Shown here piece after piece: positions 265 to 25,127 of a stretch of DNA of 33,617 bases. Source of the DNA: Natronogracilivirga saccharolytica (GTDB lineage Bacteria > Bacteroidota > Rhodothermia > Balneolales > Natronogracilivirgulaceae); the NCBI RefSeq assembly GCF_017921895.1, contig NZ_JAFIDN010000018.1, positions 1 to 33,617 on the forward strand, read 5' to 3'. The notes beneath the pieces were generated by a model. The model made no database searches. It worked only from the letters and a program-made list of their open reading frames with translations, and was not told the DNA's origin. The translations under genes were made by a program, and so were the position numbers. Every line of letters begins with the position of its first letter. Positions within the stretch are counted from its first letter, which is position 1.

Positions 265-288
265 CTGATACTTAAGTTGTCAAATATT

Positions 289-1311
289 ATGATAGATAAA
301 TTGAAAATAAGAAATGAGTATCAGGAATTAAAAAAAATATTTAAAACTATAGAGTCATTATATCGCAATATAAATTCATTAGAACCTGGTGTATATTTAA
401 TATCTGGTAAAGTAGCTGTAATGTATAGATATAGAAGACACTATAAAACACTTTTGTACACAAGGGGCAAAGGAATGAAAATATTAGTTCCAGTATTTAG
501 TAAAAAAAGTGGAATTAGTAATGTCTTAAATAATGCACTATGCCGAGCTAACTCGAAATCAATTATTCTATTCAATAATATTCACAAAAGTGTAAGGCGT
601 ATTGAGAATGAACCCGTATATAATAAAAAATATATTGAATTACGCAATAAGTTACAAGAGTATTTATATCAACCAAAGTTTTATGTAAGTGATGATGAAA
701 AACAAATATTAGAAAAGTGGTATTATGGAAAGACACTTGAGAACATACCTATAAGAAAACGTATACGTGAGGTTGAGAAAATTATCAATGATTTATTGTA
801 TATGAATGAAAAAGAAAAAAACAATAACATTACAGGTTATCTAAGTAAAAATGATTTGTGTGAATATAAAGCCTATTTTAAAAGAATCGGTATATGCATA
901 AATGAAGCATATACTTTCATAAATAGATTTTCATTAGTACCAAGTCATGGTGATCTTGTTACTCGTCATGTGATAATAAATGATGGTAAGTATGTACTTA
1001 TCGATTGGGATGCTGAGTTAGTCTCCATGAGGCCAGGATGGTATGATATCATGAGCCCATTTGAAAACGATGAAGAATTAAAGAAAGCATGGATCATTGG
1101 AGAGTTTGATAACCAAATAGAAAAAACTATAGAAATTGCAGGTGTAGGAAACAAAGAATCGATTAGAATGATAATGCCGCTTGCATGGTCAATATCATTC
1201 TGCAGACATCGTCCTTCGCCTAGCGATGAAGTTAGGAGAAGAACAATAAAAAATAATTTAAACGAATGGTATCGTATAATAAAAGATAATTCACACCAAG
1301 GGTTTCAATAG
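289..1311 (+). CDS. APH/choline-kinase-like phosphotransferase
   Basis: A 340-residue protein if started at ATG 289; a TTG at 277 is in frame but less likely. The C-terminal half has the aminoglycoside-phosphotransferase/choline-kinase signature: the catalytic SHGDL loop at about residues 219-223 and the metal-binding LIDWD at about 237-241. In the usual HGDxxxxN loop the Asn that helps bind magnesium is His here (HGDLVTRH), which is atypical. Family members phosphorylate small hydroxylated molecules such as choline, sugars or antibiotics. In a surface-glycan locus a sugar or amino-alcohol kinase role is plausible, but the substrate cannot be read from sequence. The gene is clearly more AT-rich than the genes downstream, which suggests separate acquisition. 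It is followed by about 330 bp without a convincing gene. Confidence 0.65.
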   Translation: MIDKLKIRNEYQELKKIFKTIESLYRNINSLEPGVYLISGKVAVMYRYRRHYKTLLYTRGKGMKILVPVFSKKSGISNVLNNALCRANSKSIILFNNIHKSVRRIENEPVYNKKYIELRNKLQEYLYQPKFYVSDDEKQILEKWYYGKTLENIPIRKRIREVEKIINDLLYMNEKEKNNNITGYLSKNDLCEYKAYFKRIGICINEAYTFINRFSLVPSHGDLVTRHVIINDGKYVLIDWDAELVSMRPGWYDIMSPFENDEELKKAWIIGEFDNQIEKTIEIAGVGNKESIRMIMPLAWSISFCRHRPSPSDEVRRRTIKNNLNEWYRIIKDNSHQGFQ

Positions 1312-1430
1312 GGCTAAATAACATTCCAAGTACTCAAATATGTAAATATCATAATGGATAATATAGAAGGTAATGAAAGCTATGAAAAAAAAGAAAGATA
1401 AAAAGAAAGACATATGTCGAACATTTAAAA

Positions 1431-1613
1431 ATGCGGTTTAATGCAAAAGTACGTGTTGTAGATTTTTCTCGGATGATCACAGGATATCAGGAAAAGGTTC
1501 TTTATGATTCGTCAGAATCTACAATGAGTTTATATGATAAAGAGAAAGAAGAATTAGAATCAATGCAATATCAGAAATTGAACTGGATCAATTTCGGGAT
1601 ACAAACGACTTAA
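1431..1613 (+). other. Short unrecognised ORF in the 1312-1641 gap; possible gene remnant
   Basis: This is the only sizeable open frame in the 330-bp gap between the kinase and the next glycosyltransferase. It would encode 60 residues with no domain I recognise and no clear ribosome binding site. A lysine-rich mini-frame (from ATG 1384) ends just inside its start. It may be the remnant of a degraded gene or just AT-rich spacer. Nothing else is seen in the gap. Confidence 0.2.
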
Positions 1614-1641
1614 AATCACTATCAGCCAGGGCGTTTCGGAA

Positions 1642-2934
1642 ATGAATTTCAAACCATACAAAGATCACATAGAAAATTATTACAAAACGTATTCCCGCTA
1701 TTATGACAAGTATCCTTATGCCATGATAATATTTGAATGGTTTATAAGGGTCCCGGATGAAGAGTATTCAAAGAGTAAACATTTTCTGGACCTGAAAAAA
1801 TTTAACTATAAGCTCTATATACTTAGAAAGCTATTCAACTTCATCAGTTTGATCAGTATACTGGTAAAGAGCAAGCCGAAAGTAATATCAAACCTGCCAA
1901 GATTTTCATTTATTGATTCAAAATTGAGAGCCATTTGTCAGGAGAAGGGTTATACGTATTCAGGACGTTTAAACAATACATCTGACAAACCAGGGTTTAA
2001 AACCCTTATTTGCCTGTTGCTGCTTAAGAGATTCCCTTTTGAGGACACTCTTCTGTGCAGTATCAGGTTTTATTATTTATTCTCAAAAATTGCAGAGGAT
2101 GGATTGCAAAAAACGCTTGACAATGATAGTCTTATGAACAGATTAAATATCTATGTCAAGAATGAGATTGATGCTTATTCCCGAAACCTTGAAAGAATAA
2201 ATGTCCATAGTGTCTTTAGCCAGGGAGACAAAACCCCAAGACTGAGGGTTTTTTGTGAATCCGTTAAAAAGGCTCAGTCAAAATACATCGTAATAGCCCA
2301 TGGCTATATAGTTCATCCGCACCTGGTATCTTTTTGTCCCGTACATGCAGATAAGCTGATTGTCTGGAATGTTAAACAACTGGAAGATCTTTCTGATGTG
2401 CTGCCAGATAGTGAGATTGCCAAGGTATTATATATTGGCTGGCCTAAAGAGAAAGTGAACCTTGTGCCTCCGGATCAGAGAGACTACAGAAAAGCTTTAA
2501 TATTGCTGCGACCTTTAGAATATGAAAATAATAATTTATCAGAGAGTATAATAGAGGAATTAAAGAACAATAAGTTTAGTGTGACTGCCAAGATGCACCC
2601 CAAAGATTATAAGATAAAAGAGAATATCCGTTATATTAAGGAAAAGTTTAAAATAGATGTATCTGCATCTTCATATGAAGAAGAACTGATTGATTCCGAT
2701 ATTGTGCTAAGTTGTGTCAGTTCAGCGCTTGTGGAAGGTCTGGAAAACGGGGTTCCTTCTTTTCAACTTGAGGAGATGAAATGGTGGGATATGGATGAAG
2801 TCCCTGATATTTCTATAAATGAAATATCACGTTATTACAGCAAATACGAAAATTTTATAAAAGAAAATCATTTCTTCAACAATGATACTGATTTAAATAA
2901 GGAGATAAATAATTTGATATCAAATGACAATTGA
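1642..2934 (+). CDS. GT-B glycosyltransferase with HP and SS motifs; candidate nonulosonic-acid transferase
   Basis: A 430-residue protein with no signal peptide. The N-terminal half is not recognisable. The C-terminal half has an AHGY segment at residues 219-222, a KMHP motif at 317-320 and a CVSSALVEGL segment around 358-367. His-Pro and Ser-Ser motifs at this spacing are the hallmark of bacterial sialyl/polysialyl- and Kdo-type transferases (GT38, GT52, GT80 and related). There His acts in CMP binding and Ser binds the phosphate. CDP-glycerol glycerophosphotransferases share a similar fold, so that is the main alternative. Because the window encodes a CMP-legionaminic acid pathway, a CMP-nonulosonate transferase is an attractive reading, but this is inference. 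It is 6 bp upstream of the next gene, probably in the same operon. Confidence 0.5.
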   Translation: MNFKPYKDHIENYYKTYSRYYDKYPYAMIIFEWFIRVPDEEYSKSKHFLDLKKFNYKLYILRKLFNFISLISILVKSKPKVISNLPRFSFIDSKLRAICQEKGYTYSGRLNNTSDKPGFKTLICLLLLKRFPFEDTLLCSIRFYYLFSKIAEDGLQKTLDNDSLMNRLNIYVKNEIDAYSRNLERINVHSVFSQGDKTPRLRVFCESVKKAQSKYIVIAHGYIVHPHLVSFCPVHADKLIVWNVKQLEDLSDVLPDSEIAKVLYIGWPKEKVNLVPPDQRDYRKALILLRPLEYENNNLSESIIEELKNNKFSVTAKMHPKDYKIKENIRYIKEKFKIDVSASSYEEELIDSDIVLSCVSSALVEGLENGVPSFQLEEMKWWDMDEVPDISINEISRYYSKYENFIKENHFFNNDTDLNKEINNLISNDN

Positions 2935-2940
2935 GAGAGA

Positions 2941-3804
2941 ATGGACGGCAAGGTATCAGTTATAGTACCCGTTTATAATCGTGAAAAATATCTTGAGAAC
3001 AGCGTTTTAACAGCTGTCAACTTACCTGAAGTAAGTGAGGTTATTTTGATCGATGATGGTTCCAGGGATAACTCTCTGAATGTTTGTAAGAAACTTGAAA
3101 GCAAGTATGAAAAAATCAAGGTTATTGTTCATGATAATAACGTTAACAAAGGTACTTCGGCGTCAAGGAACGCTGGTATAAAACATGCCTCTGCTCCATT
3201 CATTGCCTTTCTGGATTCAGATGATATTTATCATCCGAACCGTTTTGAAAAAGCTCTGAAAATATTGAATAATGATGAAACCGTGGATGGTGTTTATGAC
3301 TCATATACCGTCAGGTTTGAAAATGGTATGGAAGATATCAGAGGTATACGGGAAAAGATTCCTTACCACAAACTGTTTGAAGAACTTATTGCCGGCAAAA
3401 AAGGCAGAATTCATACAAATGCCATCACTTTAAAAAAAGAAGTATTTGATAAAAGCGGTTATTTCAAAGAAGATCTACGCTTGCAGGAGGATGTCGAATT
3501 ATGGCTACGGATTGCCTGGCATTGCAAGCTGGTACCAGGCAACCTTGAGGAACCAGTTGCTACCGTCATACGGCATGATGAAAACTTGATGGATCAGACC
3601 AACTTCCATTCAAAAATCAAATATTATGAGTCCTCATTGAATTATTTTAAAAACAAGCAGATCAGTTTTAATTGTTATTGGTTGCTATGGCTCAAACTTG
3701 TAAAATTCAGGTTTAAAAATAAAAATATTGCCCAGTTTCTAAGTGGATTAATGTCTAATGATATGTTTTTTTTATTCCAAAGAATGAATAAGCAGGTGAA
3801 ATGA
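2941..3804 (+). CDS. Glycosyltransferase family 2
   Basis: A 287-residue GT-A enzyme. It starts with the classic GT2 strand and loop VSVIVPVYNREKYL, followed by EVILIDDGSRDNS (nucleotide binding), GTSASRNAGIKHA, and the DSDD metal-binding motif near residues 92-95. A later LQEDVELWLRIAW segment matches the catalytic-base and acceptor region (ED motif). It would transfer a sugar from an NDP-sugar to a lipid-linked acceptor at the cytoplasmic face of the membrane. The sugar is not predictable. It follows the preceding transferase after 6 bp and overlaps the next gene by four bases (ATGA), indicating translational coupling. Confidence 0.88.
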   Translation: MDGKVSVIVPVYNREKYLENSVLTAVNLPEVSEVILIDDGSRDNSLNVCKKLESKYEKIKVIVHDNNVNKGTSASRNAGIKHASAPFIAFLDSDDIYHPNRFEKALKILNNDETVDGVYDSYTVRFENGMEDIRGIREKIPYHKLFEELIAGKKGRIHTNAITLKKEVFDKSGYFKEDLRLQEDVELWLRIAWHCKLVPGNLEEPVATVIRHDENLMDQTNFHSKIKYYESSLNYFKNKQISFNCYWLLWLKLVKFRFKNKNIAQFLSGLMSNDMFFLFQRMNKQVK

Positions 3805-5411
3805 CCCTGTCTGTCTCTTCCAGTCAAAAAACCGCCTGGACTGTAAATAATAATATTTCAGTAAGAGGGTATGCTTATGAGGCTAACAACCAGTGTTTAT
3901 CCGGGAAAAAATTAGCGAACTTTTTTACTGACTGCCTCACTCCGGAGCTTTTCAAGAACAAACTCAAACAATTAAACGGTTCTTTTGCTGTCATTATCCA
4001 GATAACCCCCCGGGAAATCTGGGCAGCTGCAGACCCTTTGCGATCTGTTCCCTTGTTTTACTACTTTGAAGGTGACCAGCTGAAAGTAGTCGACAAATAC
4101 GATACGTTTACTAAAAATCCGGATCTGGATCCTGACTCAGTTAAGGAGTTTACCGGACTCTGTTATACCACTGGAAATAATACCCTTCTTCCGCACCTGC
4201 AGCAAATAGAAGCAGGCCAGCTGATTGCATCAGATGGCAGCATTGTCAGAAAAGAGTATTATTATCAGCATCTGCACAGGTACAGGAATCATTTTTCGAA
4301 AAATGAGCATTTCAAAAACCTGAATGATGTTTCATACAGTGTTTTCCAGAGAATGGCTGAATATTGCCGGGACAAAACCATAGTGCTGCCCCTTAGCGGT
4401 GGCTATGACAGCCGTTATATAATTGCATTTTGCAGGTATCTGGGAATAGATAATGTGATGTGCTTCACTTATGGCAAACCTGCAAGTTTTGAAGTTAAAG
4501 CTTCCCGGGAGGTTGCCCGTCAATTGGGTTACGACTGGCATTATGTGGAGTATAACAAAAACAAATGGCGCTTATTCCTGGACTCTGAAAAGGGATGGAA
4601 ATATATGGACTATGTGTTCAATTTTTCTTCCGCTCCGCACTTCCAGGAATTTATAGCTTTGGATGAACTGCAAAAAGAGGGTGTAATTCCTGACGATGCC
4701 GTTTTCATACCGGGCTTTTCTGCGGACCTGCTTGCCGGAAGCCACCTCCCTGCAGAGTACTATGAAAACCGCCCTGATGATTTAATGAATAAAGATCTTG
4801 CAGGGTACATTATAGATCATAACTTTCGAACAGAACTGAATGCGCAGGCAAGAAAAAAAATAACAGAGCGAATTACAGCATCACTGCACCAGAAATCGCC
4901 TCATTCACCAGATGAGTTCGTCAGTCTGAATGAAGACTGGTTTACCCGGCATAAAGTAGCCAGATTTATTAATAACAGTCTGAAGATTTACGAGTTTTTT
5001 GGCTATGACTGGATGATACCGCTATGGGACAAAGAACTTATGGAGTATTGGTACGATGTTCCCAATGAACAAAGGGTTTTATCAGCTCTCTACAATGAAT
5101 ATCTGGAACAGGAAGTTTTTAAACCGCTGAAGATTCATGATATAGAGAAAGCGGACAAACCTTCGCCCAACAAACTCAGGAAGGTGATGAAAACGGTACT
5201 TCCCAAACGCCTCATACCATCCATGAGAAATTACATAAGGCAAATAAAAGGGGAGTCTGGCATGATAGATATTAATGCTTACAATGATTTATCAGACCTT
5301 GCGATTGAAAGGCTGAAGGGAAAGGGATTAAAGAAGAATGATTATCACTTTTCTACATTAGTAGCCATGCTATATTTGCAAAATAGAGCATTATGGTCAC
5401 GTCCTGAATAA
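3801..5411 (+). CDS. Asparagine-synthase-like amide ligase without glutaminase nucleophile
   Basis: A 536-residue member of the asparagine synthase group. The ATP-pyrophosphatase loop LPLSGGYDSR lies at about residues 196-205 and is the adenylylating PP-loop. The N-terminal ~150 residues resemble the class II glutamine amidotransferase fold (NGSFAVIIQ, then AADPLRSVPLFYY). However, the protein does not start with Met-Cys, so the Cys nucleophile that releases ammonia from glutamine is absent. Such proteins occur in O-antigen and capsule loci, where they are thought to amidate uronic acids or make other amide or amidine bonds. Here ammonia would have to come from free ammonium or a partner. It overlaps the upstream GT2 gene by four bases. 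Substrate unknown. Confidence 0.75.
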   Translation: MTLSVSSSQKTAWTVNNNISVRGYAYEANNQCLSGKKLANFFTDCLTPELFKNKLKQLNGSFAVIIQITPREIWAAADPLRSVPLFYYFEGDQLKVVDKYDTFTKNPDLDPDSVKEFTGLCYTTGNNTLLPHLQQIEAGQLIASDGSIVRKEYYYQHLHRYRNHFSKNEHFKNLNDVSYSVFQRMAEYCRDKTIVLPLSGGYDSRYIIAFCRYLGIDNVMCFTYGKPASFEVKASREVARQLGYDWHYVEYNKNKWRLFLDSEKGWKYMDYVFNFSSAPHFQEFIALDELQKEGVIPDDAVFIPGFSADLLAGSHLPAEYYENRPDDLMNKDLAGYIIDHNFRTELNAQARKKITERITASLHQKSPHSPDEFVSLNEDWFTRHKVARFINNSLKIYEFFGYDWMIPLWDKELMEYWYDVPNEQRVLSALYNEYLEQEVFKPLKIHDIEKADKPSPNKLRKVMKTVLPKRLIPSMRNYIRQIKGESGMIDINAYNDLSDLAIERLKGKGLKKNDYHFSTLVAMLYLQNRALWSRPE

Positions 5412-5412
5412 A

Positions 5413-5426
5413 AGCTGGTACCAGCT
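5413..5426. terminator. 14-bp palindrome just after the amide ligase gene
   Basis: AGCTGGTACCAGCT is a perfect inverted repeat located one base after the stop codon of the upstream gene and before an AT-rich spacer. It could form a short stem, but there is no run of T directly after it, so a weak terminator or chance palindrome are both possible. Confidence 0.25.
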
Positions 5427-5461
5427 CAATCTGAATTTATTTATTGAATATTACTTACTAT

Positions 5462-6574
5462 ATGAAAATCGCCTATTTTTTTACCTGGAATGACGACCTC
5501 GAAAGCGGTGTAATGAAAAAGGTTCGCGATCAAGTCTCTTTCTGGGAAAGAGAAGGCCATCAAACGAAAATCTTGGTTTTAACTAACCGTAATTCGTTGC
5601 TTCATCAGAATTTTCATAATCTTGATGACACACCAAACATTTCGTGGCATTGCTTTGAATACGATGGCTTTATTGAAAGAAACAGGCAGTACGCGAATCT
5701 GCAAAAAGAAGTGATTGGCTTTAGCCCCGATATCGTTTATTTACGCAAATGCAAATTCTCTCCTGGTGCCTATCGTATTTTGAAACAATTTGTTTCCGTT
5801 ATGGAGTTGAATGGAAAACCAAAACCATTCAGGATCAGGTTGGGACATATTTATGACTTGGTGACATTTCGAATAATTCTCAATGAAGTGCAAGGATTTG
5901 TTACGGTTGGCAATGAAATTAAAACTGCACCTATCTATGCTGCTCAAAAAAAATCAACAAAAGTAATCGGAAACAGCATAGATCAGTCGCGTTATCAACC
6001 TTTACCTCCGGCTGAAAAAAAAAAAGGATTAACGTTCGTATACATTGGCTCATCCGGCCAACCCTGGCAGGGAGTAGATAAGATTTTGAAAATTGGCAGA
6101 ATGCGGCCTTCATGGCTTATACATATTATTGGCAGCAGGCCCGAAGAATTAGGAATTAAACCAAAAGAATTACCTAATGTAGTTTTCCATGGAAAAATGA
6201 ACAGGGAAGAATACCTGAAAGTATTCAGGGAGTCCGATATTGCTCTTGCTACACTGGCACTTCACCGTAAGGCCATGGACGAAACATCAACTCTCAAAAT
6301 ACGCGAATATTTTACCTGCGGACTTCCTGTAATAACAGGTCATAAAGATCCGGACTTCACAGGCAATGAGCCTCATATCCTTATTATACCAAATTATGAA
6401 AAAAACGTAGTGGACCATATTGAGCAAATTGAGGCTTTTGCAAAAAAATGGAAGGGAAAAAGAGTGGACAGGAAGCTGGTGGAACATCTTGATGTCCGTT
6501 ACAAAGAAAAAGAACGTCTGGACTTTTTTCAACAAATTTATGATTCCAGCCAAGCAGAAAAATCAGCTGTTTAA
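5462..6574 (+). CDS. Glycosyltransferase family 4-like (GT-B)
   Basis: About 370 residues from ATG 5462; an in-frame TTG at 5444 would add six residues and is less likely. The start MKIAYFFTWND and a C-terminal nucleotide-sugar binding half (LTFVYIGSSGQPWQGVDKI, ELPNVVFHGKMNREEYLKVFRESDIALATLALH, then TLKIREYFTCGLPVITG) match GT4 glycosyltransferases. The last segment takes the place of the EX7E motif: the Glu of KIREYFTCGLPV is retained. It is expected in the cytoplasm at the membrane, adding a sugar to the growing glycan. Donor and acceptor unknown. It is separated by about 75 bp from the P-loop gene downstream. Confidence 0.8.
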   Translation: MKIAYFFTWNDDLESGVMKKVRDQVSFWEREGHQTKILVLTNRNSLLHQNFHNLDDTPNISWHCFEYDGFIERNRQYANLQKEVIGFSPDIVYLRKCKFSPGAYRILKQFVSVMELNGKPKPFRIRLGHIYDLVTFRIILNEVQGFVTVGNEIKTAPIYAAQKKSTKVIGNSIDQSRYQPLPPAEKKKGLTFVYIGSSGQPWQGVDKILKIGRMRPSWLIHIIGSRPEELGIKPKELPNVVFHGKMNREEYLKVFRESDIALATLALHRKAMDETSTLKIREYFTCGLPVITGHKDPDFTGNEPHILIIPNYEKNVVDHIEQIEAFAKKWKGKRVDRKLVEHLDVRYKEKERLDFFQQIYDSSQAEKSAV

Positions 6575-7286: not shown

Positions 7287-8585
7287 ATGAAGTCTGTCTA
7301 TGTCGCAATGAGTGCTGACTTCATTCACCCGGGTCACCTCAATATTATCCATGAAGCAGCCAAACGTGGCAAATTGACCATCGGATTGCTGACTGATGAA
7401 GCCGTTGCCTCTTACAGAAGGCTGCCATACCTGGAATACGAGCACCGTAAAATCATCGTGGAAAGCATCAAAGGGGTGGAAAGTGTAGTCCCGCAGTATC
7501 AACTCGACTATCGTCCCAACCTCAGGGAGCTCAAACCCGATTATGTGGTTCACGGCGATGACTGGAGAGAGGGCCCGCAAAAACGGACACGCCAGCAAGT
7601 GATTGAAACACTGCAGGAGTGGGGGGGAGAACTGATCGAGCTGCCCTACACAAAAGAACTCTCTTCCACAAAGCTGTATGAGGCCATGATGGAGGTGGGC
7701 ATTACACCTGATGTCCGCCTGAAACGGCTGCGCAGGCTGATTAACTCCAAGGATATTGTGCGCATCATGGAATCCCACAGCGGATTATCCGGCCTTATCG
7801 TGGAACACACCCATGTGGATGTCAATGGCATAGTTCAGGAATTCGACGGAATGTGGGCAAGCAGCCTGACCGATTCCGCACTCAAGGGCAAGCCCGACAT
7901 CGAAGCGGTGGACATCAGTGCCAGATTGTCCAATATCAATGACCTTCTGGAAGTAACCACCAAGCCCATTATTTTCGACGGGGACACCGGTGGAAAAGTC
8001 GAACATCTCGGGTTTACAATCCGGACCCTCGAGCGCCTTGGTGTTTCGGCCATTATCATTGAGGACAAGGTCGGACCGAAAAAAAACTCGCTTTTCGGAA
8101 CAGACGTGCCGCAGGAGCAGGACAGCATAGAAAATTTTTGCGAAAAAATAAGGGTGGGCAAAAAATCCCAGGTCACCGATGATTTCATGATCATCTCGCG
8201 CATTGAAAGCCTCATACTCAAAGCCGGCATGAATGATGCTCTGAAAAGGGCGCAGGCTTATATTGAGGCCGGGGCAGACGGCATCATGATCCATTCCAGG
8301 GAAAAGAGCCCCGATGAAATTTTTGAATTCTGCCGGCATTTCAGTGAGTTCGAACGCGATGTTCCTTTGATCGTGGTACCGTCAAGTTTCGATTCGGTGT
8401 ATGAAGACGAACTGGCTGATGCCGGAGTCAACATGGTAATTTATGCGAATCAGCTTCTGCGCAGCGCTTATCCTGCCATGGTTGAAACAGCCAGAAGCAT
8501 CCTTACCCACAAACGATCTTTTGAAGCCAGAGATAACATGATGTCGATCAAAGACATCATTCACCTGATACCCGGCGGTAAATAA
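7287..8585 (+). CDS. aepX: Cytidylyltransferase-phosphoenolpyruvate mutase fusion, intact
   Basis: A 432-residue two-domain protein. Residues 1-140 are an HxGH-type nucleotidyltransferase: HPGH at 14-17, HGDDW at 89-93, SST at 126-128. Residues ~165-432 are PEP mutase (isocitrate-lyase superfamily), with the Mg-binding DGDTGG at 231-236, the signature loop [10 protein letters not shown] at 259-268, Arg305 in SRIES and His336 in MIHS. By comparison with the Mytilus enzyme these cover the metal ligands and the catalytic and substrate residues. PEP mutase rearranges phosphoenolpyruvate into phosphonopyruvate and forms the C-P bond that starts phosphonate biosynthesis. The N-terminal domain would activate a product with CTP (inference from family). 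The same architecture is typical of AepX in Bacteroides capsule loci. It acts in the cytoplasm. A paralogue with a degenerate mutase domain follows at 9687, and a deacetylase gene lies between them. Confidence 0.92.
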
Positions 8586-8652: not shown

Positions 8653-9615
8653 ATGCTGAGCATTATCATGTATCATTATGTCAGAGAGATTAAGCAGTCC
8701 CGCTATCCCAATATAAAAGGGCTTGAGGCGCATCTCTTTAAAAAACAACTCGATTACATTGAGCAAAATTACAGTGTGGTGACAGCAGAGCAGGTTATAG
8801 CATATTATAATGGCGCCGGTACGCTGCCGGAGAATGCGGCTTTGCTCACATTTGACGACGGGTACAGTGATCATTTCCAATACGTATATCCCATTCTTAA
8901 GAACAGAAAAATGCAGGGATCTTTTTTTGTCCCTGTCAAACCGGTTCAGGAAAACAGGGTTCTTGATGTAAATAAAATTCATCTTCTCCTTGAGGCGGTC
9001 CCGCCAAAAAAGCTGATTGCCGGAATCAAACGACTTCTTCCGGACTATCAAATGGAGCATGATGTGGCGGATTTCGAAGCCTACTATCAGGAACTGGCCA
9101 AACCCGGCAGATACGATACTGCCGAAGTGATCTTCATAAAGCGTCTTTTGCAGCACAAACTGCCCGATGACGTGAGGCTTGACCTTCTTTCACGGCTGTT
9201 CGAAACGTTCATATCCGTCCCGGAGCATGTCATTGCCAGGGAATTGTATATGACCGGCGATCAGTGCAAATGCCTGGTGGAAGACGGCATGCACGTGGGA
9301 GCGCACACCTGTGATCATTTGTGGCTGAACCAGATCAGTGATGACCGGCAGGATGAACAGTTCCGGAATAACGTATCTTTCCTGGAAAGCATTGGTGCGG
9401 ACGCAGACACGTATACCATGGCCTATCCGTACGGCGCATATAACCGCAAAACGCTGGACTTGATGAATAAATACAACATGAAGCTGGGTTTTACCACGGA
9501 ACCGATCGGAAATATCAACCTGAAAGAAACTCATCCATATGAACTGCCACGGCTGGATACCAATGACCTGCCCGTTCAGCAACATCCGGAATCATCCGTT
9601 TCCGCACGGAACTGA
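8653..9615 (+). CDS. Polysaccharide deacetylase family protein (NodB fold), intact motifs
   Basis: A 320-residue protein starting MLSIIMYHYV, a common opening of this family, with no obvious signal peptide. Motif 1 is TFDDGYSDH at 66-74: Asp68 is the catalytic base and Asp69 the metal ligand. Motif 2 is HTCDH at 218-222 (two metal-binding His). Motif 3 is represented by AYPYGAYN. NodB-fold enzymes use a metal to remove N- or O-acetyl groups from sugars. The lack of a signal suggests action on a cytoplasmic sugar or lipid-linked intermediate, such as an amino sugar in this glycan. Between motifs 1 and 2 there is an insertion of about 140 residues compared with compact NodB domains. The same insertion occurs in its degenerate paralogue at 27572. 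Confidence 0.85.
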   Translation: MLSIIMYHYVREIKQSRYPNIKGLEAHLFKKQLDYIEQNYSVVTAEQVIAYYNGAGTLPENAALLTFDDGYSDHFQYVYPILKNRKMQGSFFVPVKPVQENRVLDVNKIHLLLEAVPPKKLIAGIKRLLPDYQMEHDVADFEAYYQELAKPGRYDTAEVIFIKRLLQHKLPDDVRLDLLSRLFETFISVPEHVIARELYMTGDQCKCLVEDGMHVGAHTCDHLWLNQISDDRQDEQFRNNVSFLESIGADADTYTMAYPYGAYNRKTLDLMNKYNMKLGFTTEPIGNINLKETHPYELPRLDTNDLPVQQHPESSVSARN

Positions 9616-9686: not shown

Positions 9687-11003
9687 ATGAATAAGGAAGT
9701 AAAAGAAGTATATGTATGTATGGTTGCCGACATGCTTCATGCAGGGCACCTCAATATTATCAACGAAGCATCCAAACTCGGAAGCGTTACGTTGGGCCTG
9801 CTTACTGACGAGGCCGTAGCCACCTACAAGAGGGTTCCGCATCAAAGCTATGAGCAGCGGAAAGTGGTCCTGGAAAACCTGAAAGGTGTGGACCGGGTCG
9901 TCATACAGCACGAACTCGATTACCGGCCCAACCTGCGAAAATACAAACCTGATTACGTGGTTCACGGGGACGACTGGAAAGAGGGCCCTCTCAAAAAAAC
10001 TCGTGAGCAAATCATAGATGCCCTCAAGGAGTGGGGCGGCGAGCTGGTCGAGGTGCCGTACACGAAAGGCATTTCATCAACTCAGCTCAACAATGTGATC
10101 GAGGAGATCGGCGTGACACCCGAAATGCGGCTCAACCGCTTTCAAAGGCTGCTGTCATCCAAAAAAATGGTGCGGATTATTGAAACACACAACGCACTTT
10201 CAGGCCTGATAGGTCAACATGTGCATGTTTCAGAGAATGGTGCCAGGAAGCAATTTGACGCGATGTGGATCAGCAGTAAAACCGACGCCATGCTCAATGG
10301 CCTTTCAGATGATGAGACCCGGGACATATCCTCACGCATTGCCTCCATCAACGAACTGCTCGATGTGACTACCAAACCGGTTGTCTTTGAAGGGAATGCC
10401 GCGTGGCCGCCGGGGCAGCTGAAATTTGCCGTCCGGTCCCTCGAAAGGCTGGGCGTGTCGGCGCTTGTAATCCGGGACGGACAGGAACGGCAAAGCTATT
10501 CCGGTCAGGACGATAACCTTGACCGGGACCAGCTGTCGGCCGGGACATTTTGTTCCATAATCACGTCGGCCAAATCCACCCGGATTACCGATAAATTCAT
10601 GATCATCGCACGGATCGACAGTTTGCGTTTTGGAAAGGGAGTAAAGGATGCCGTTGACCGGGCAAAGGCATACATTAACGCCGGCGCGGACGCAATAATG
10701 ATCCAGTCTGACGATGACGACGCAGACCAGATCCTGAAGTTCTGCAAGGCTTACAAAGCACTTGAACGCAGGGTAACCCTGATTGCAGCCCCTACGGGTT
10801 GTGATACGGTATACGAGAAGGAACTTTCCGAAGCAGGGGTGAACATCGTCCTTTACGACAATCAACTGCTGCGAAGCGCGCTCCCCGCCATGATGGAAAC
10901 CGCCAGAAAAATTCTGACGCACGAGCGCTCATTTGAAGCAAGGGAAAGAATGATGACGGTCAGGGATTTTAACCACCTGATACCCGAAATACGGAAGAAA
11001 TGA
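9687..11003 (+). CDS. Cytidylyltransferase fused to a degenerate PEP-mutase domain (AepX paralogue)
   Basis: A 438-residue paralogue of the intact AepX upstream, alignable almost without gaps with a +4 offset. The N-terminal nucleotidyltransferase keeps all its motifs: HAGH 18-21, HGDDW 93-97 and SST 130-132. The mutase half has lost its chemistry. The metal-binding DGDTGG is EGNAAW (235-240). The [10 protein letters not shown] loop is [10 protein letters not shown] (263-272). The catalytic His is Gln (MIQS, around 340). Only the Arg (309) and the structural framework remain. It is therefore predicted not to be a PEP mutase. The likely function is cytidylyl transfer with the second domain as a scaffold or binding module. 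Its last codon overlaps the AepY start (ATGA), so it is made together with AepY, LicD and the second kinase. Confidence 0.88.
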
Positions 11004-12145
11004 TACCTAACGAGCCCTTTTTAAAAACTTTGCAGGATCTGGGTATCGATTTTTTTGCCGGTGTTCCCGATTCGCTCCTGAAACATATCTGCGCATGCAT
11101 ATACGATAACGTGGATGCCGGCCGGCAAGTCATAACAGCCAATGAGGGCGGCGCGGTTGCACTGGCCGCAGGCTATCATCTGGCGACGGGGAAAATCCCT
11201 CTGGTCTACATGCAAAACTCCGGACTGGGCAACAGCATCAACCCGCTTCTTTCCCTGGCCGATCCCGAAGTATACAGCATCCCCATGCTGCTGCTTGTCG
11301 GATGGCGCGGTGAGCCCGGTGTGCCTGACGAACCTCAGCATGTCAAGCAGGGAAGAGTGCAAGGAAGTCTGCTGGATGCCATGGAAATTCCATACGAAAC
11401 CATCGGACCGGATTCGGACAATTATGCCGAAATAGTTCGCAGCCTGATCGAAAAAGCAGATTCAGAAAAGCGTCCTGCAGCACTGGTTGTCCGACGCGGA
11501 ACCTTTGAGCCCTATGTCCGGAATCAGGATAAGCAGGAAAGCCACACCCTGACGCGCAGAGAGGCTCTTGATGTCCTTGTTCAGTCCCTCGATGATCAGG
11601 ACATTGTCGTATCTACTACCGGGATGCAATCCAGGGAGATTTTTGACATACGCGCTGAGACTCAAACGGGGCACCACCGGGATTTCCTTACCGTCGGGTC
11701 CATGGGACACTGCTCCCAGATTGCACTGGGCATTGCCCTGAAAAACAGATTCCGTAATGTCTACTGTTTCGATGGAGACGGTTCCGTTCTGATGCACATG
11801 GGATCACTTGCCATCATTGGAAATAACGCACCCCGGAATTTCAGGCATGTCGTCATAAACAACGGGGCGCATGACTCGGTTGGAGGGCAGCCAACGGTCG
11901 GGTTTTCGATTGATATTCCGGCCATCGCAACAGCATGCGGATACCGTGAGTGCCGCCGGGCGGATGACCGTGCCGGATTGATTGAAAACCTGGACTGGCT
12001 CAAAAGCACGGCGGGTCCCGTACTTCTGGAAGTGCGTGTCCACAAAGGTGTGCAGAAGGAGCCGGGCCGGCCCACCCGGAAACCGGTGGAGAACAAGACC
12101 GACTTTATGAACAATTTAAAATCTGCAGGTAAGCTGAATGTATAA
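11000..12145 (+). CDS. aepY: Phosphonopyruvate decarboxylase
   Basis: A 381-residue thiamine-diphosphate enzyme of the usual length for this family. The N-terminal PYR domain has the FAGVPDSLL opening and the catalytic Glu in ANEGGAV (Glu49). The C-terminal PP domain has GDGS at 259-262 and the NN pair at 287-288, which complete the ThDP/magnesium signature. [14 protein letters not shown] is typical of phosphonopyruvate decarboxylases. It removes CO2 from phosphonopyruvate to give phosphonoacetaldehyde. This pulls the unfavourable mutase reaction forward, so it should work with the intact AepX at 7287. It overlaps the upstream gene by four bases and the LicD gene by eight. No 2-AEP transaminase or aldehyde reductase follows in the window, so the fate of phosphonoacetaldehyde is open. 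Confidence 0.92.
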
Positions 12146-12839
12146 CCTGGGTTATAACGACCTGAAAATTTTAAAGCTGACAGACAAGTATATCCTCAAG
12201 GACCGCATTGCCTGGATTGATCAGGGGTCGCTGCTGGGGCTCGTCAGGGATGGTAAATTCATTGAGTGGGATGATGATATAGACATCACATGCATGTACG
12301 ACAAAAAGCCGGAACTGAGCATGTCAGATCTGAAGCTGCTTTTGGAGCATGACTACATCGTGCTGACTTCAAAATATGATTACACGCTCAAAAAACTCTC
12401 CCTCGGCAAAAGTTTGAAAAAAGTAGACCTGACTTTCATCTACAAAAAGAAGAACAAATATTATAAATCGTATTCCGATTACAAGAATCAGAACATTATT
12501 GCGAAAATTTTTGAGAAAACGATCAAGGAGTCCTTCCAGCTGCTGTGCAAACTGAAGCGGCCGGGCCCGAGACTGGCAGGATGGATGCTGGTGAACTCCC
12601 TGACGCACTTCTACCGGAGCTATGTCATGAAGACGGTAGATATGCTATGTCCGGAATGGCAGTTTGATCTGGAAATGGTCCCGATGCACGAGGGCTTCAG
12701 CTCCATCTGTATGTACAAGCAGCCTGAAAAGTATCTGGAGTACAAATTCGGCCCGGACTGGAAAACCCCGAAGCGGGAATGGGATTATACTACAGAAGAT
12801 GGCGGTCTTAAAAGCGGAGTGACAGATGGGCAGCCCTGA
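12138..12839 (+). CDS. LicD-family phospho/phosphono-transferase
   Basis: A 233-residue protein with the LicD signature: GSLLGLVRDGKFIEWDDDIDI at about residues 30-50, including the DDDID metal-binding cluster of the nucleotidyltransferase fold. LicD-type proteins transfer phosphocholine or related phospho-groups from CDP- or CMP-activated donors to glycans. Located directly after AepX2 and AepY with overlapping reading frames, the natural proposal is transfer of a CMP-activated phosphonate, for example 2-aminoethylphosphonate, onto a sugar of the surface polymer. The donor is inferred from context only. It acts in the cytoplasm. It overlaps AepY by eight bases at its start and the P-loop gene by 14 bases at its end. 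Confidence 0.8.
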   Translation: MYNLGYNDLKILKLTDKYILKDRIAWIDQGSLLGLVRDGKFIEWDDDIDITCMYDKKPELSMSDLKLLLEHDYIVLTSKYDYTLKKLSLGKSLKKVDLTFIYKKKNKYYKSYSDYKNQNIIAKIFEKTIKESFQLLCKLKRPGPRLAGWMLVNSLTHFYRSYVMKTVDMLCPEWQFDLEMVPMHEGFSSICMYKQPEKYLEYKFGPDWKTPKREWDYTTEDGGLKSGVTDGQP

Positions 12840-13506
12840 AAAAACAAGAATCGGCCATTTGGTCATCATAACGGGACCAACATCATCCGGCAAAAGTACA
12901 CTGCTGGCATCCATGAGAAACGGAGAGTTGAATGAAAAGCTCAAATCACTGTTGCCGGCCGGTGCCGCCGCCTGGGAGGAGTATCCATGCAGTGCCTTTG
13001 ATGGCAGCGTGAAGCTTGACGAATCCAAAGAAGGAATGGTTCTTCATTATGATATTATGAGGCCTTTCAAGAAATTTCTGGATAGTTATGAAGATGACCT
13101 GGCTTCCGGTCTTATGGATCTTGCTGATAACGTGACCATTGTCTTCATCAAACCCGACAGGGATGTACTTCTCCGACAACTGCAGGAGGGGGAGTTCAAA
13201 GGCGGAAAAGTCGAAACGGGCAAGGGCGCGATGTATCTCAGAAGTCTGCTCACCAGATCAATGCGGGTAATACCGTCATCAGTCCGGCAGTTTGTGAAAA
13301 ACGTATTGGTACCCGGCCAGAGGAAATCCATCACGGACTTTAATAAAATCCTGTACTTCAGGTATCAGGAATCCGGCTGGCTGGAAAACTGGTATGACAA
13401 ATTTGAAGCCTTTATTGCACGTAAAAAGGAAAACGGAACCCGAATCCGCATTTTCTTTGTCAAACCCGGCACAGCCGGTAGAAAAAACTGGGTTTTGATC
13501 GAGTAA
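12826..13506 (+). CDS. Small P-loop kinase-like NTPase (second of two)
   Basis: A 226-residue protein with a Walker A motif GPTSSGKST at residues 17-25 and a hydrophobic strand NVTIVFIKPDRDVLLRQL at about residues 102-119, the pattern of guanylate- or shikimate-kinase-like small kinases. Beyond the P-loop it has no family signature I can name. It is translationally coupled to the LicD gene (14-base overlap), so it probably belongs to the same function, perhaps kinase chemistry on a nucleotide or phosphonate intermediate. It differs in sequence from the P-loop protein at 6651-7238. Substrate unknown. Confidence 0.6.
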   Translation: MGSPEKTRIGHLVIITGPTSSGKSTLLASMRNGELNEKLKSLLPAGAAAWEEYPCSAFDGSVKLDESKEGMVLHYDIMRPFKKFLDSYEDDLASGLMDLADNVTIVFIKPDRDVLLRQLQEGEFKGGKVETGKGAMYLRSLLTRSMRVIPSSVRQFVKNVLVPGQRKSITDFNKILYFRYQESGWLENWYDKFEAFIARKKENGTRIRIFFVKPGTAGRKNWVLIE

Positions 13507-18701: not shown

Positions 18702-19682
18702 ATGAACAGGGCATTGGTTACAGGCGCAGATGGTTTTATCGGTTCTCACTTGACAGAGCTTCTGCTGGAGAAAGGATTCAGGGTCAGAGCGCTTTCATAC
18801 TACAACTCGTTCAACTTCTGGGGCTGGCTGGAAGATGTCCGGGATCACCCTGACCTGGAAATTATCAGCGGAGATATCCGTGATCCGCATTTTGTAAAGC
18901 ATTGTCTCAAGGATATGGATGTCGTTTTCCATCTGGCATCATTGATCGCAATTCCATATTCCTACATCGCACCCGACAGTTATGTTGATACCAATGTCAG
19001 GGGCACCCTGAATGTATGTCAGGCGGCCAAAGAGCTTGGCGGCATCCGGGTATTGAGTACTTCCACCTCAGAAGTTTACGGTACGGCACGGTATGTTCCG
19101 ATTGATGAAGATCATCCCAGGCAGCCGCAATCACCATACTCAGCTTCAAAAATTGCAGCCGATGCCATGGCGATGAGTTTTTACACATCCTTTGATTTGC
19201 CGGTCACCATTGTCAGGCCGTTCAATACCTATGGCCCGCGTCAATCGGCGCGCGCCATCATTCCGACCATCATCACCCAGATAGTCGCCGGTGAGAAAAG
19301 CATTAAACTGGGCGATGTATCCCCGACAAGGGACTTTAATTTTGTTAAAGACGTTGTGCGCGGATTCCTGGCCGTGGCTGCATCCGGCAAGACCATTGGA
19401 GAGGAGATCAATATTGCATCCAATTCTGAAATATCAATGGCTGACACGCTGGCACTCATAAAAAGTATCATGAAAAGCGATGTGCAGTTCATAACAGATG
19501 AGCAGCGTATCAGACCTGAAAAATCTGAAGTGTTCAGACTTTGGGGCGACAACAAAAAGATCACAAATTTGACAGACTGGGAGCCGGCCTGCTCTTTGGA
19601 AGCCGGACTGGAAGAGACGGTTTCATGGTACACAAACCCTCATAATCTGCAAAAGTTCAAATCGGCGATCTATAATATTTAG
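18702..19682 (+). CDS. legB: NDP-GlcNAc 4,6-dehydratase of the legionaminic acid pathway
   Basis: A 326-residue extended SDR. The NAD-binding TGADGFIG is at residues 7-14, the active-site STSEVYG at 121-127, and YSASK (Tyr146, Lys150) the catalytic pair. The segments YYNSFNFWGWLE (33-44) and RPFNTYGPRQSARAIIPT are characteristic of LegB-type dehydratases and distinguish them from PseB. LegB removes water from GDP- or UDP-GlcNAc to give the 4-keto-6-deoxy sugar, the first committed step to legionaminic acid. The following gene is the partner aminotransferase LegC. PtmE at 24059 suggests the GDP-linked route known from Campylobacter (established pathway). Cytoplasmic. Confidence 0.9.
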   Translation: MNRALVTGADGFIGSHLTELLLEKGFRVRALSYYNSFNFWGWLEDVRDHPDLEIISGDIRDPHFVKHCLKDMDVVFHLASLIAIPYSYIAPDSYVDTNVRGTLNVCQAAKELGGIRVLSTSTSEVYGTARYVPIDEDHPRQPQSPYSASKIAADAMAMSFYTSFDLPVTIVRPFNTYGPRQSARAIIPTIITQIVAGEKSIKLGDVSPTRDFNFVKDVVRGFLAVAASGKTIGEEINIASNSEISMADTLALIKSIMKSDVQFITDEQRIRPEKSEVFRLWGDNKKITNLTDWEPACSLEAGLEETVSWYTNPHNLQKFKSAIYNI

Positions 19683-19724
19683 AGCTTTTGACAAGCCCCC
19701 GCAACCCTGGAACTACTTAGCTCA

Positions 19725-20954
19725 TTGGAACCCGGATTTACGACATACTGCAAAAAAGTAACGGAATTTATACGTAATGTGTACGGAGATCCGGAACAGC
19801 CCGAAGCATTCATCCCGCTTCACGCGCCGGTCTTCAGGGGCAACGAAAAAAAGTACCTGGAAAAGTGCATCGACAGCACATTTGTTTCCAGTGTCGGGGC
19901 CTATGTGGACGAATTCGAAGGCCGGATGACAGAATATACCGGATCCGCTCAAGCGGTGGCATGCGTCAACGGCACAAGCGCTTTGCACCTGGCGCTCCGG
20001 TTGTGCGGTGCAGATCGCGAAACCGAGGTGATTACCCAGCCGCTTACTTTTGTAGCCACAGCCAATGCCATTCGGTACTGCGGGGCGGAGCCCGTATTTC
20101 TGGATGTCGATCGCGAAACCATGGGATTGTCACCCGATGCATTGCGCAACTGGCTGAAAAATCATGCAGAGATAACAAGCATCAGCGACTGGAACGAACC
20201 GACATGCATCAACAAATCGACCGGACGGCGGATTGCCGCCTGCGTACCCATGCATGCCTATGGGCATCCGTGCCGGATCGATGACATTGTCCGCATTTGC
20301 GAAGAGTATCATATACCGCTGGTCGAAGACGCGGCCGAGAGCGTGGGCAGTTTCTTCCGGGAGAGGCACACCGGCACGTTCGGAGATATTGGTGTGCTCA
20401 GCTTTAACGGCAACAAGGTGATCACGGCAGGCGGGGGCGGGATGCTCCTTTTCCGGGACAAGGAAATGGCCGGCCGGGCAAAGCACCTGTCCACACAGGC
20501 CAGGGTTCCCCACAAATGGGAGTTTATCCATGATCAGACCGGATACAACTACCGGATGCCCAATGTCAATGCCGCCCTCGGACTGGCCCAGCTCGAGCAA
20601 CTTCCCCGGTTTCTGCGTGAAAAACGGCGCATTGCAGAACAGTACAGGGAATTCTTTGCCGGCTCAGACACAAATGGTCAGGCAGCAGGGGATGCATCCA
20701 TCATCTTCATGACCGAGCCCGAACATGCACACTCGAATTACTGGCTGAACACCATCATGCTCCCCGGCAAACCGGCCCGGGATGAATTTCTTGCTTACAC
20801 CAACGACCAGGGTATTATGACCCGTCCGGCATGGCGCCTGATGAACGAGCTGGAAATGTACCGTTCCTGCCAAACGGACCGGCTTGACAATGCAAGAGAC
20901 CTGGCTGACCGGCTTGTGAATATTCCAAGCTCCGTTCCGGGAAACATATTATGA
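19725..20954 (+). CDS. legC: PLP-dependent sugar aminotransferase of the legionaminic acid pathway
   Basis: A 409-residue DegT/DnrJ/EryC1-family enzyme, starting with TTG at 19725. The start is chosen because it gives the full LegC-like N-terminus and no ATG lies nearby. Landmarks are FIPLHAPVFRGNEKKYL, STFVSSVGAYVDEFE, the VNGTSALHLAL cofactor region, and SFNGNKVITAGGGG with the PLP-binding Lys at residue 231. It transfers an amino group to C4 of the keto sugar made by LegB, giving the 4-amino-6-deoxy sugar. Normally LegH then acetylates this amine; here a formyltransferase gene follows directly. The gap to legB is 42 bp. It is not a 2-AEP transaminase, which belongs to a different PLP fold-type group. 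Confidence 0.88.
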   Translation: MEPGFTTYCKKVTEFIRNVYGDPEQPEAFIPLHAPVFRGNEKKYLEKCIDSTFVSSVGAYVDEFEGRMTEYTGSAQAVACVNGTSALHLALRLCGADRETEVITQPLTFVATANAIRYCGAEPVFLDVDRETMGLSPDALRNWLKNHAEITSISDWNEPTCINKSTGRRIAACVPMHAYGHPCRIDDIVRICEEYHIPLVEDAAESVGSFFRERHTGTFGDIGVLSFNGNKVITAGGGGMLLFRDKEMAGRAKHLSTQARVPHKWEFIHDQTGYNYRMPNVNAALGLAQLEQLPRFLREKRRIAEQYREFFAGSDTNGQAAGDASIIFMTEPEHAHSNYWLNTIMLPGKPARDEFLAYTNDQGIMTRPAWRLMNELEMYRSCQTDRLDNARDLADRLVNIPSSVPGNIL

Positions 20955-20984
20955 TTTTATACGGCATTACATTGCAGCAGGTAT

Positions 20985-21881
20985 ATGAATAAAATTACAA
21001 TCGGTTATTTCGCCGACGGTCCCTGGTCGCACCAGGCCCTGGATCGTCTGGCAGATGATCCATCCGTTGAAATATCATTTGTTGTGCCCAGAAAGGGCTC
21101 GCGCGATCAGACGCTGATCCGGCTTGCCCGGGAACATCAGATTCCCTGCCATGAAAACGCGCTTGTCAATTCACCGGAATTCATGGAGCTGGCAGCCGGC
21201 TATGAATGCGATCTGTTTGTATCCATGAGTTTCAACCAGATATTCAGGGAACTGTTGCTGAACATTCCCAAATGGGGCTCCATCAACTGCCATGCGGGAA
21301 AACTCCCGTTTTACCGTGGCCGGAATATTCTGAACTGGGCGTTGATCAATGACGAAAAGGAGTTCGGCATCACCGTGCACCATATTGATACCGGCATTGA
21401 TACCGGAGACATCATTTCGCAGCAAACCTATCCCATCCGGGATTCCGATACCTACCGGACGCTGCTGGAACGGTCCTATACGTATTGTGCCGGCCTGCTT
21501 CATGATACTGTAAAAAAAATTCAGAACGGCACAGCAGCAAGAACACCGCAGTCGGAGATTCATCCCGTCGGATTTTATTGCGGAATGAGGGGGGAAGGTG
21601 ATGAAATCATCGACTGGAATCATTCCTCACGGAATCTCTTCAACTTTATCCGGGCTGTTTGCGATCCCGCTCCCAAAGCCACAACGTTCTTCAAAGGACA
21701 AACCGTCAGGATCAACAAGGCCAAGATGATTCCCGGCGCACCGGCCTATATTGGAATTCCCGGTCAGCTGGTCGGAACCACATCTGCCGGATTAATTGTC
21801 AAAACAAAAGATACTACACTGGAACTGATGGAAATTGACAGTCCGGTTCCACTTAAAACAGGAGACAGGTTAGGATCATGA
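20985..21881 (+). CDS. Sugar N-formyltransferase (replaces LegH)
   Basis: A 298-residue formyltransferase-family protein. The catalytic Asn-His-Asp set is present: INCHAGKLPFYRG supplies Asn101 and His103, and HHIDTGIDTGDII supplies Asp139. A C-terminal OB-fold-like region follows (NKAKMIPGAPAYIGIPGQLVG). The family uses N10-formyl-tetrahydrofolate to formylate amines. Located between LegC and LegI, the slot normally occupied by the acetyltransferase LegH, it is predicted to formylate the 4-amino group. That group becomes the 7-amino group of the nine-carbon sugar, giving a 7-N-formyl legionaminic acid derivative. That is an inference from position and family; the substrate is untested. It overlaps legI by four bases (ATGA). 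It is not a tRNA formyltransferase, which is longer and housekeeping. Confidence 0.82.
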   Translation: MNKITIGYFADGPWSHQALDRLADDPSVEISFVVPRKGSRDQTLIRLAREHQIPCHENALVNSPEFMELAAGYECDLFVSMSFNQIFRELLLNIPKWGSINCHAGKLPFYRGRNILNWALINDEKEFGITVHHIDTGIDTGDIISQQTYPIRDSDTYRTLLERSYTYCAGLLHDTVKKIQNGTAARTPQSEIHPVGFYCGMRGEGDEIIDWNHSSRNLFNFIRAVCDPAPKATTFFKGQTVRINKAKMIPGAPAYIGIPGQLVGTTSAGLIVKTKDTTLELMEIDSPVPLKTGDRLGS

Positions 21882-22885
21882 GCAATGGCATTAAAATCAT
21901 AGCAGAAGCGGGAGTGAACCATAACGGTTCGATGAAACTGGCTGAAGAGCTGATTGATGCTGCCGCTGAAGCAGGGGCTGATTTTGTCAAATTCCAAAGC
22001 TTCCGGGCTGACGGTCTCGTCAGCAAGAATGCTCCCAAGGCCGATTACCAGAACAGGACAACCGATGTGACGGAATCCCAGTACGACATGATCAGGCGCC
22101 TGGAGTTGCAGGTACAGGATCATGAGCGGCTGATTTCACACTGCCGGAGCAGAGGCATCGGCTTTCTTTCATCTCCCTTTGACCATGACAGCATTGATCT
22201 TCTGGATCGTCTCGGACTCGATATATTCAAGGTCCCCTCGGGAGACGTGACCAACCTGCCCTATCTGCGCAAACTGGGCGCTTTGAAAAAACAGGTTATC
22301 CTGTCCACCGGAATGGCAGACATGAAGGAGGTCGGGGATGCACTGCAGGTGCTGGTTTCCGGCGGCACACCCAAAAGTAACATAACGGTGCTGCACTGCA
22401 ATACGGAATACCCAACGCCCTTTGAGGATGTTAATCTGCGTGCCATGCAGGCCATCAAGCGGACATACGATGTCAATATCGGATATTCTGACCACACGAC
22501 GGGAATTGAAATACCACTCGCCGCAGCGGCGCTGGGCGCAACAGTGATCGAAAAGCATTTCACTCTGGACCGGAACATGGAAGGGCCGGACCACAAGGCC
22601 TCACTGGAACCGGATGAACTTCAGCAAATGGTTGCCGGCATCTGGAATGTAGAAAAGGCTCTCGGCAGCGAAACCAAAAAACCGTCACCGTCCGAGGCCG
22701 CCAACATACCTGTGGTAAGAAAAAGTATTGTTGCTGCAACAGATATAGCAAAAGGCGATGAGTTTACCGAAGGCAACCTTGCCGTCAAACGTCCGGGAAG
22801 CGGCCTCTCACCGATGCTCTGGGATGAAGTGCTGGGCAGAAAGGCAGAAAAGGACTTCATGAAAGATGAACTGATCACCATATGA
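21878..22885 (+). CDS. legI: Legionaminic acid synthase (NeuB family)
   Basis: A 335-residue protein of standard length. A TIM-barrel domain starts IIAEAGVNHNGSMKLAEELI (EAGVNHNG, residues 10-17), then GADFVKFQSF, STGMADMKEV, TVLHCNTEYPTPFEDVNL, IGYSDHTTGIEIPLAAAALGATVIEKHFTLDR and GPDHKASLEPDEL. A C-terminal SAF/antifreeze-like domain starts at about residue 277 (RKSIVAATDIAKGD). It condenses the six-carbon diamino-sugar with phosphoenolpyruvate to give the nine-carbon nonulosonic acid. NeuB (sialic acid) and PseI are alternatives, but LegB and LegC in the same operon favour the legionaminic substrate. Overlaps at both ends (four bases each) show translational coupling. Confidence 0.88.
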   Translation: MSNGIKIIAEAGVNHNGSMKLAEELIDAAAEAGADFVKFQSFRADGLVSKNAPKADYQNRTTDVTESQYDMIRRLELQVQDHERLISHCRSRGIGFLSSPFDHDSIDLLDRLGLDIFKVPSGDVTNLPYLRKLGALKKQVILSTGMADMKEVGDALQVLVSGGTPKSNITVLHCNTEYPTPFEDVNLRAMQAIKRTYDVNIGYSDHTTGIEIPLAAAALGATVIEKHFTLDRNMEGPDHKASLEPDELQQMVAGIWNVEKALGSETKKPSPSEAANIPVVRKSIVAATDIAKGDEFTEGNLAVKRPGSGLSPMLWDEVLGRKAEKDFMKDELITI

Positions 22886-24051: not shown

Positions 24052-24058
24052 AAACTTC

Positions 24059-25126: not shown

Positions 25127-25127
25127 T

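Follow-up and report, generated by a model that had tools for sequence, protein, structure and literature searches.

In the genome of Natronogracilivirga saccharolytica, we examined a stretch of 33,617 nucleotides (here called the window; contig NZ_JAFIDN010000018.1) and confirmed by sequence comparison that one of its two cytidylyltransferase-PEP mutase fusions, here named AepX2, has lost the mutase active site. With a probability of roughly three in four, AepX2 serves as a dedicated CMP-phosphonate synthetase for a LicD transferase and carries a dead mutase tail, the intact paralog AepX1 being the maker of the C-P bond. In this pathway, AepX1 would form phosphonopyruvate, AepY would decarboxylate it, AepX2 would turn the resulting phosphonate into its CMP ester, and LicD would move the phosphonate from that ester onto a surface glycan. 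The copy heading the AepY-LicD operon would thus have lost the mutase and the other copy kept it; the making half was apparently dispensable in AepX2 because its paralog within the cluster continues to make the C-P compound. The relevant features of the window are as follows.

7287 to 8585, + strand: AepX1, intact cytidylyltransferase-PEP mutase fusion of 432 amino acids (Pfam PF01467 and PF13714)
8653 to 9615, + strand: polysaccharide deacetylase between AepX1 and AepX2 (PF01522, 82.6 bits)
9687 to 11003, + strand: AepX2, fusion of a cytidylyltransferase with a degenerate PEP mutase domain (AlphaFold2 model, mean pLDDT 89.5)
9687 to 10121, + strand: AepX2 residues 1 to 145, conserved Fom1-type cytidylyltransferase domain
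10122 to 11000, + strand: AepX2 residues 146 to 438, pseudo-PEP-mutase domain with the TIM-barrel fold kept and the metal and phosphoryl site lost
11000 to 12145, + strand: AepY, phosphonopyruvate decarboxylase (TIGR03297, 476.8 bits, cut-off 312.5)
12138 to 12839, + strand: LicD family transferase (PF04991, 33.2 bits, above the cut-off; short N-terminal match)
12826 to 13506, + strand: small P-loop protein without a Pfam family above cut-off, with counterparts adjacent or close to LicD in two relatives (39 to 44% identity)

Anatomy of AepX2 and loss of the mutase site

The AepX2 reading frame starts with ATG and is open and unbroken over 438 amino acids. In a pairwise alignment it shares 56% identity with AepX1 over 431 amino acids, and both proteins have the Pfam domain order PF01467-PF13714 (in AepX2, 49 bits for PF01467 against a cut-off of 21, and 140.6 bits for PF13714). 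The NCBIfam PEP mutase equivalog TIGR02320, with a curated cut-off of 319.55 bits, placed AepX1 above this line (416.1 bits) and AepX2 below it (257.5 bits). Aligned to AepX1, AepX2 shows the changes DGDTGG to EGNAAW, MIHS to MIQS, and GKPD to GLSD, which bears out an earlier note on this DNA that had reported the first of these and the replacement of the catalytic His by Gln. The note had also described an altered EDK loop; the change itself stood, while the ungapped ten-residue counterpart it gave was slightly off register, as the aligned AepX2 loop reads RD--GQERQS with a deletion of two residues. In the numbering of mussel PEP mutase, the Mg site of AepX2 carries D85E, D87N, and E114R with D58 kept, and the phosphoryl contacts N122 and H190 are both Gln; the equivalents of W44, S46, D58, D115, S123, and R159 are retained. 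The 438-residue protein lacks a TIGR02320 match above cut-off, the EDKXXXXXNS motif, and the intact Mg site and has the predicted barrel fold.

We then compared AepX2 with other fusions in an alignment of 95 non-redundant sequences from public genomes and relatives, using 16 active-site positions mapped from the mussel enzyme. Positions W44, 46 to 48, 115 to 116, 120, and 124 were picked from family knowledge and are taken by us to be active-site residues. All 16 positions are present in 92 of 92 intact fusions. AepX2 keeps 7, and degenerate copies in two genomes of the same taxonomic family, G011 and G003, keep 8 and 2, respectively. Roles in the mussel enzyme are described for D58, D85, D87, E114, N122, S123, R159, and H190, with D85 as Mg ligand and D58, D87, and E114 holding waters of the Mg site (PMC7916636). 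At the other invariant positions of the C-terminal domain, 55 of 79 residues are kept in AepX2 and 66 and 54 in the two relatives' copies; in the N-terminal domain the counts are 47, 45, and 46 of 48. The description of AepX2 in the earlier note as a nucleotidyltransferase with a pseudo-mutase module agrees with these figures. Comparison of active-site with other invariant positions gave Fisher p values of 0.08 for AepX2 (marginal when taken alone), 0.007 for the G011 copy, and 4e-5 for the G003 copy. Both relatives' copies also score below the TIGR02320 cut-off (G011, 311.3 bits; G003, 200.6 bits), and their EDKXXXXXNS motif is replaced by HDNVASESGK and GDGAGNDANA.

A sequencing error as the source of the altered motifs, already considered unlikely in the earlier note, is improbable in view of the unbroken frame and of the two independent genomes of the family that carry a degenerate copy at the same operon place. 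The equivalog scores, the 92 intact fusions, and these two genomes likewise speak against chance. No further degenerate copies were found among the other full-length fusions in surveys of the order, class, phylum, and a second class, among 80 loci from genome contigs, or among 11 full fusions assigned to viruses, and a plasmid search returned nothing closer. Each of the eleven virus-assigned contigs (L150 to L160) encodes an entire fusion of cytidylyltransferase and PEP mutase in which the EDK motif is preserved.

Structure prediction of both paralogs, which the earlier note had proposed as a check, gave confident models (mean pLDDT of 88.1 for AepX1, comparable to AepX2), with a weak stretch in AepX2 at residues 261 to 280, the gating loop region. 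In Foldseek searches, the C-terminal domain of AepX2 still matched PEP mutases best (5unc and 1pym; TMt 0.82 to 0.85). Terminal branches of the three degenerate copies measured 0.43, 0.20, and 0.46 in the N-domain tree versus 1.69, 1.10, and 3.43 in the C-domain tree, and in an outgroup count AepX2 had accumulated 14 substitutions versus 6 in an intact relative in the N-domain and 78 versus 5 in the C-domain. By these sequence measures, the mutase domains of the degenerate copies evolve several times faster, yet they stay unbroken. As is typical of a pseudoenzyme, catalytic residues are gone and fold and reading frame have been retained across a speciation interval. We infer that the C-terminal domain of AepX2 is a pseudoenzyme whose barrel would fold but could neither hold Mg-phosphonopyruvate nor isomerize PEP.

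Cytidylyltransferase domain and operon context

The N-terminal domain of AepX2 contains HAGH and KGISST, and the retention of HAGH, HGDDW, and SST, read earlier from the letters, was confirmed. Its nearest solved structure by sequence is the Fom1 cytidylyltransferase with HEP-CMP (PDB 5x3d; 2.7e-52), and the predicted fold superimposes on this domain with a TM score of 0.96 at 1.0 Å and 60% identity. Judged by the alignment, the N-domains of the degenerate copies are conserved to the same degree as those of intact enzymes. AepX2 is probably a working Fom1-type cytidylyltransferase. Its predicted substrate is most likely 2-hydroxyethylphosphonate (HEP) or a close derivative, but AEP or a different phosphonate is also possible. 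Stand-alone domains of this type occur on two virus-assigned contigs: a cytidylyltransferase of 138 amino acids lies directly before LicD on L161, a 12-kb fragment (3007 to 4054), and one of the same length is followed by a short Fe-ADH-like gene and then LicD on L162 (2992 to 4777). Neither PEP mutase nor AepY was found on these two records, so the pairing of cytidylyltransferase and LicD exists without an attached mutase domain.

AepX2 and AepY overlap by 4 bases (ATGA), and the AepY, LicD, and P-loop genes overlap successively, in agreement with the coupling of AepX2 to AepY and LicD claimed previously. Whether a degenerate copy accompanies AepY and LicD elsewhere had been posed as a check, and it does so in three of three genomes, heading an operon of the type AepX-AepY-(Fe-ADH)-LicD. 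The order is degenerate AepX-AepY-Fe-ADH-LicD-P-loop-GT4 in G011 and degenerate AepX-AepY-Fe-ADH-LicD in G003. In two genomes with intact orthologs from genus g9 (G017 and G012), AepX1 lies several genes off and an HpcH/HpaI aldolase is found upstream of AepY (family scanned in G017). The region between intact AepX1 and AepY in G017 (L112, 1651 to 7920) encodes this aldolase, a 2-hydroxyacid dehydrogenase, a CTP_transf_3 protein, and a GAPDH-like protein; together these may constitute a 2-keto acid sugar module of an unusual kind.

A TIGR02320 search of the window genome returned AepX1 and AepX2 only, and AepX1, with 16 of 16 active-site positions, is the sole intact PEP mutase found in the assembly. 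Several findings weigh against our preferred pathway. The assignment of LicD is based on a short motif match. The window genome has no ortholog of the relatives' Fe-ADH; AepZ did not reach the cut-off there, and the one Fe-ADH family match of the genome is weak, so that any assignment of a fate to phosphonoacetaldehyde, and hence of a substrate to AepX2, is tentative. Moreover, a supplier of the AepX1 type was seen in the window genome only. An intact mutase was not found in the G011 and G003 assemblies, which are 88% and 93% complete and hold their degenerate genes near contig ends (about 3 kb away in G011, 284 bases in G003). As G013 and G016 have an intact AepX and no assembled AepY, cluster genes are often missing from these assemblies, and the apparent absence of the mutase from G011 and G003 may be an effect of incomplete assembly.

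Further along the window, at 18702 to 25838, we observed a nonulosonic-acid-like set comprising an NAD epimerase, a DegT aminotransferase, a formyltransferase, NeuB, a UDP-GlcNAc epimerase type, a CBS-nucleotidyltransferase, and CTP_transf_3; a formylated nonulosonic acid is probably a further component of the glycan. Third-position G+C is 0.23 to 0.43 in the genes at 277 to 6574 and 0.25 at 30003 to 31157, and about 0.5 to 0.6 in most genes from 7287 on.

Origin of the pair and role of the pseudo-mutase tail

The degenerate copies of the three genomes group in a single clade, with support of 91/90 on the N-domain alone and 98/98 at full length, and in the N-domain tree this clade is sister to AepX1 and its intact g9 orthologs. 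All three share the derived residues Q98L and H240Q. Independent decay of the G011 copy within its own genus was rejected (p-AU of 0.0095 for the N-domain and 0.019 for the full length), as was a recent tandem duplication confined to the window (0.029 and 0.011). A long-branch artifact as the sole cause of the clade was likewise dismissed, as the slower N-domain alone recovers it and Q98L and H240Q are shared. The simplest account of these trees is a single duplication followed by mutase loss in one copy before the genera of the family split, which we regard as likely, not proven, as the N-domain support lies under the 95 line. The AepX2 type represents an old variant, specific to this lineage, within an already known family of fusions.

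Why the tail persists can be answered in several ways. It is quite possible, if short of an even chance, that it is a tolerated relic without a role, in which the old active site drifts neutrally and the domain is kept since an unfolded barrel would harm the cytidylyltransferase. Fast evolution of the C-domain fits this, as do the stand-alone cytidylyltransferases adjoining LicD and the loss in all three copies of the equivalents of D87, E114, K116, K120, and L124 with no shared replacement. However, the reading frame of the domain has remained open over its whole length in all three genera from a time before they diverged, 68 to 84% of the non-catalytic invariant positions are kept, the fold of AepX2 is confidently predicted, and none of the three copies shows a simple truncation. 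A role as oligomerization partner or scaffold is on the unlikely side; here, AepX2 would form mixed dimers or tetramers with AepX1, dock AepY, or both, and phosphonopyruvate would pass from AepX1 to AepY and its product to AepX2. PEP mutases reportedly occur as homodimers that can assemble into tetramers (PMC7916636), the region corresponding to AepX1 residues 382 to 421 keeps 10, 10, and 8 of 12 invariants in the three copies, and AepX2 is translationally coupled to AepY, but the G003 and G011 assemblies yielded no intact partner. The more specific proposal of a conserved assembly module that binds AepX1, and perhaps AepY, in a channeled phosphonate-to-CMP-phosphonate complex, with catalysis and scaffolding divided between the paralogs, appears rather doubtful. 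It is very improbable that the tail gained a new catalytic activity within the PEP mutase/isocitrate lyase superfamily. The equivalents of D58 and R159 are kept in AepX2 and the G011 copy, the latter also having those of D85 and H190, and G003 and G011 have AepY and no visible mutase; yet the differing replacements at the five lost positions argue against a new common active site, no new conserved site was seen, and the gating loop of AepX2 carries a deletion. For the phosphonate-binding role suggested earlier, a conserved site is also unlikely, given that each of the three copies has its own replacements at the ligand-binding positions.

A further question is whether the two cytidylyltransferases divide substrates or labor reciprocally, with AepX1 becoming mutase only and AepX2 cytidylyltransferase only, which we consider doubtful. 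The GISST loop of AepX1 has the change G124E, which no other member of its clade shows and at which just two others of the 95 sequences depart from G, and its N-domain is faster than in the g9 orthologs (11 to 13 versus 1 to 3 changes; relative-rate p of 0.006 to 0.035, in comparisons that were made post hoc and share sequences), while its C-domain rate differs less. These sequence changes hint that the AepX1 N-domain may be relaxing. Nevertheless, it keeps 47 of 48 invariants, including HPGH and SST. The earlier claim that the two paralogs divide CTP activation and mutase chemistry between them is therefore not supported as worded: the split is one-sided, since the cytidylyltransferase domain of AepX1 is itself almost fully retained, and CTP activation may reside on both copies and the mutase on one. 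As to the G124 changes, G087 has a stand-alone PF01467 gene and L081 a PF00483/PF12804 gene nearby; a second cytidylyltransferase as the explanation was set aside, being post hoc and at odds with L052, which has a second gene and no such change listed. Separately, the AepX of G087 (L141, 8687 to 12552) has lost 9 of 48 N-domain invariants (EDVSSS loop) and shares its operon with a separate PF01467 cytidylyltransferase, making it a possible mirror image of AepX2.

Relation to known phosphonate systems

AepX2 resembles Fom1 of the Streptomyces wedmorensis fosfomycin pathway (PDB 5x3d; PMC6697681, ref. 28) in having an N-terminal cytidylyltransferase fused to PEP mutase. Fom1, however, is bifunctional and belongs to an antibiotic cluster, whereas AepX2 lacks the mutase site and is part of a glycan cluster that includes LicD. 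The barrel predicted for AepX2 residues 146 to 438 matches that of the Mytilus edulis PEP mutase (1PYM/1S2V; TMt 0.82 to 0.84), with Mg and phosphoryl contacts changed. Tailoring cytidylyltransferases of the PntC type are alike in the proposed CMP activation of a phosphonate before LicD-type transfer but belong to a different nucleotidyltransferase family (PF12804 rather than PF01467). The Ppm-PF01467 fusions, for which cell-surface phosphonyl tailoring has been proposed (Rice et al. 2019, PMC6697681), combine the same two Pfam domains in one protein. According to that study, a nucleotidyltransferase domain is found in about 60% of Ppm enzymes, and EDKXXXXXNS is present in 883 of 905 fusions, the other 22 having been dropped as presumed non-Ppm; AepX2 would fall into this discarded class. 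A literature search, with subscription papers outside its scope, found no description of a pseudo-mutase fused to a cytidylyltransferase.

Phosphonate producers are called from a PEP mutase match, and the AepX2 clade, which passes Pfam, would be miscalled; a motif filter discards the clade, and a probable cytidylyltransferase is then lost from surveys. In this clade, phosphonate activation has been separated by nature from the making of the C-P bond, which bears on why the fusion is common and whether it channels, and the matched live and dead copies in one cluster make this question testable.
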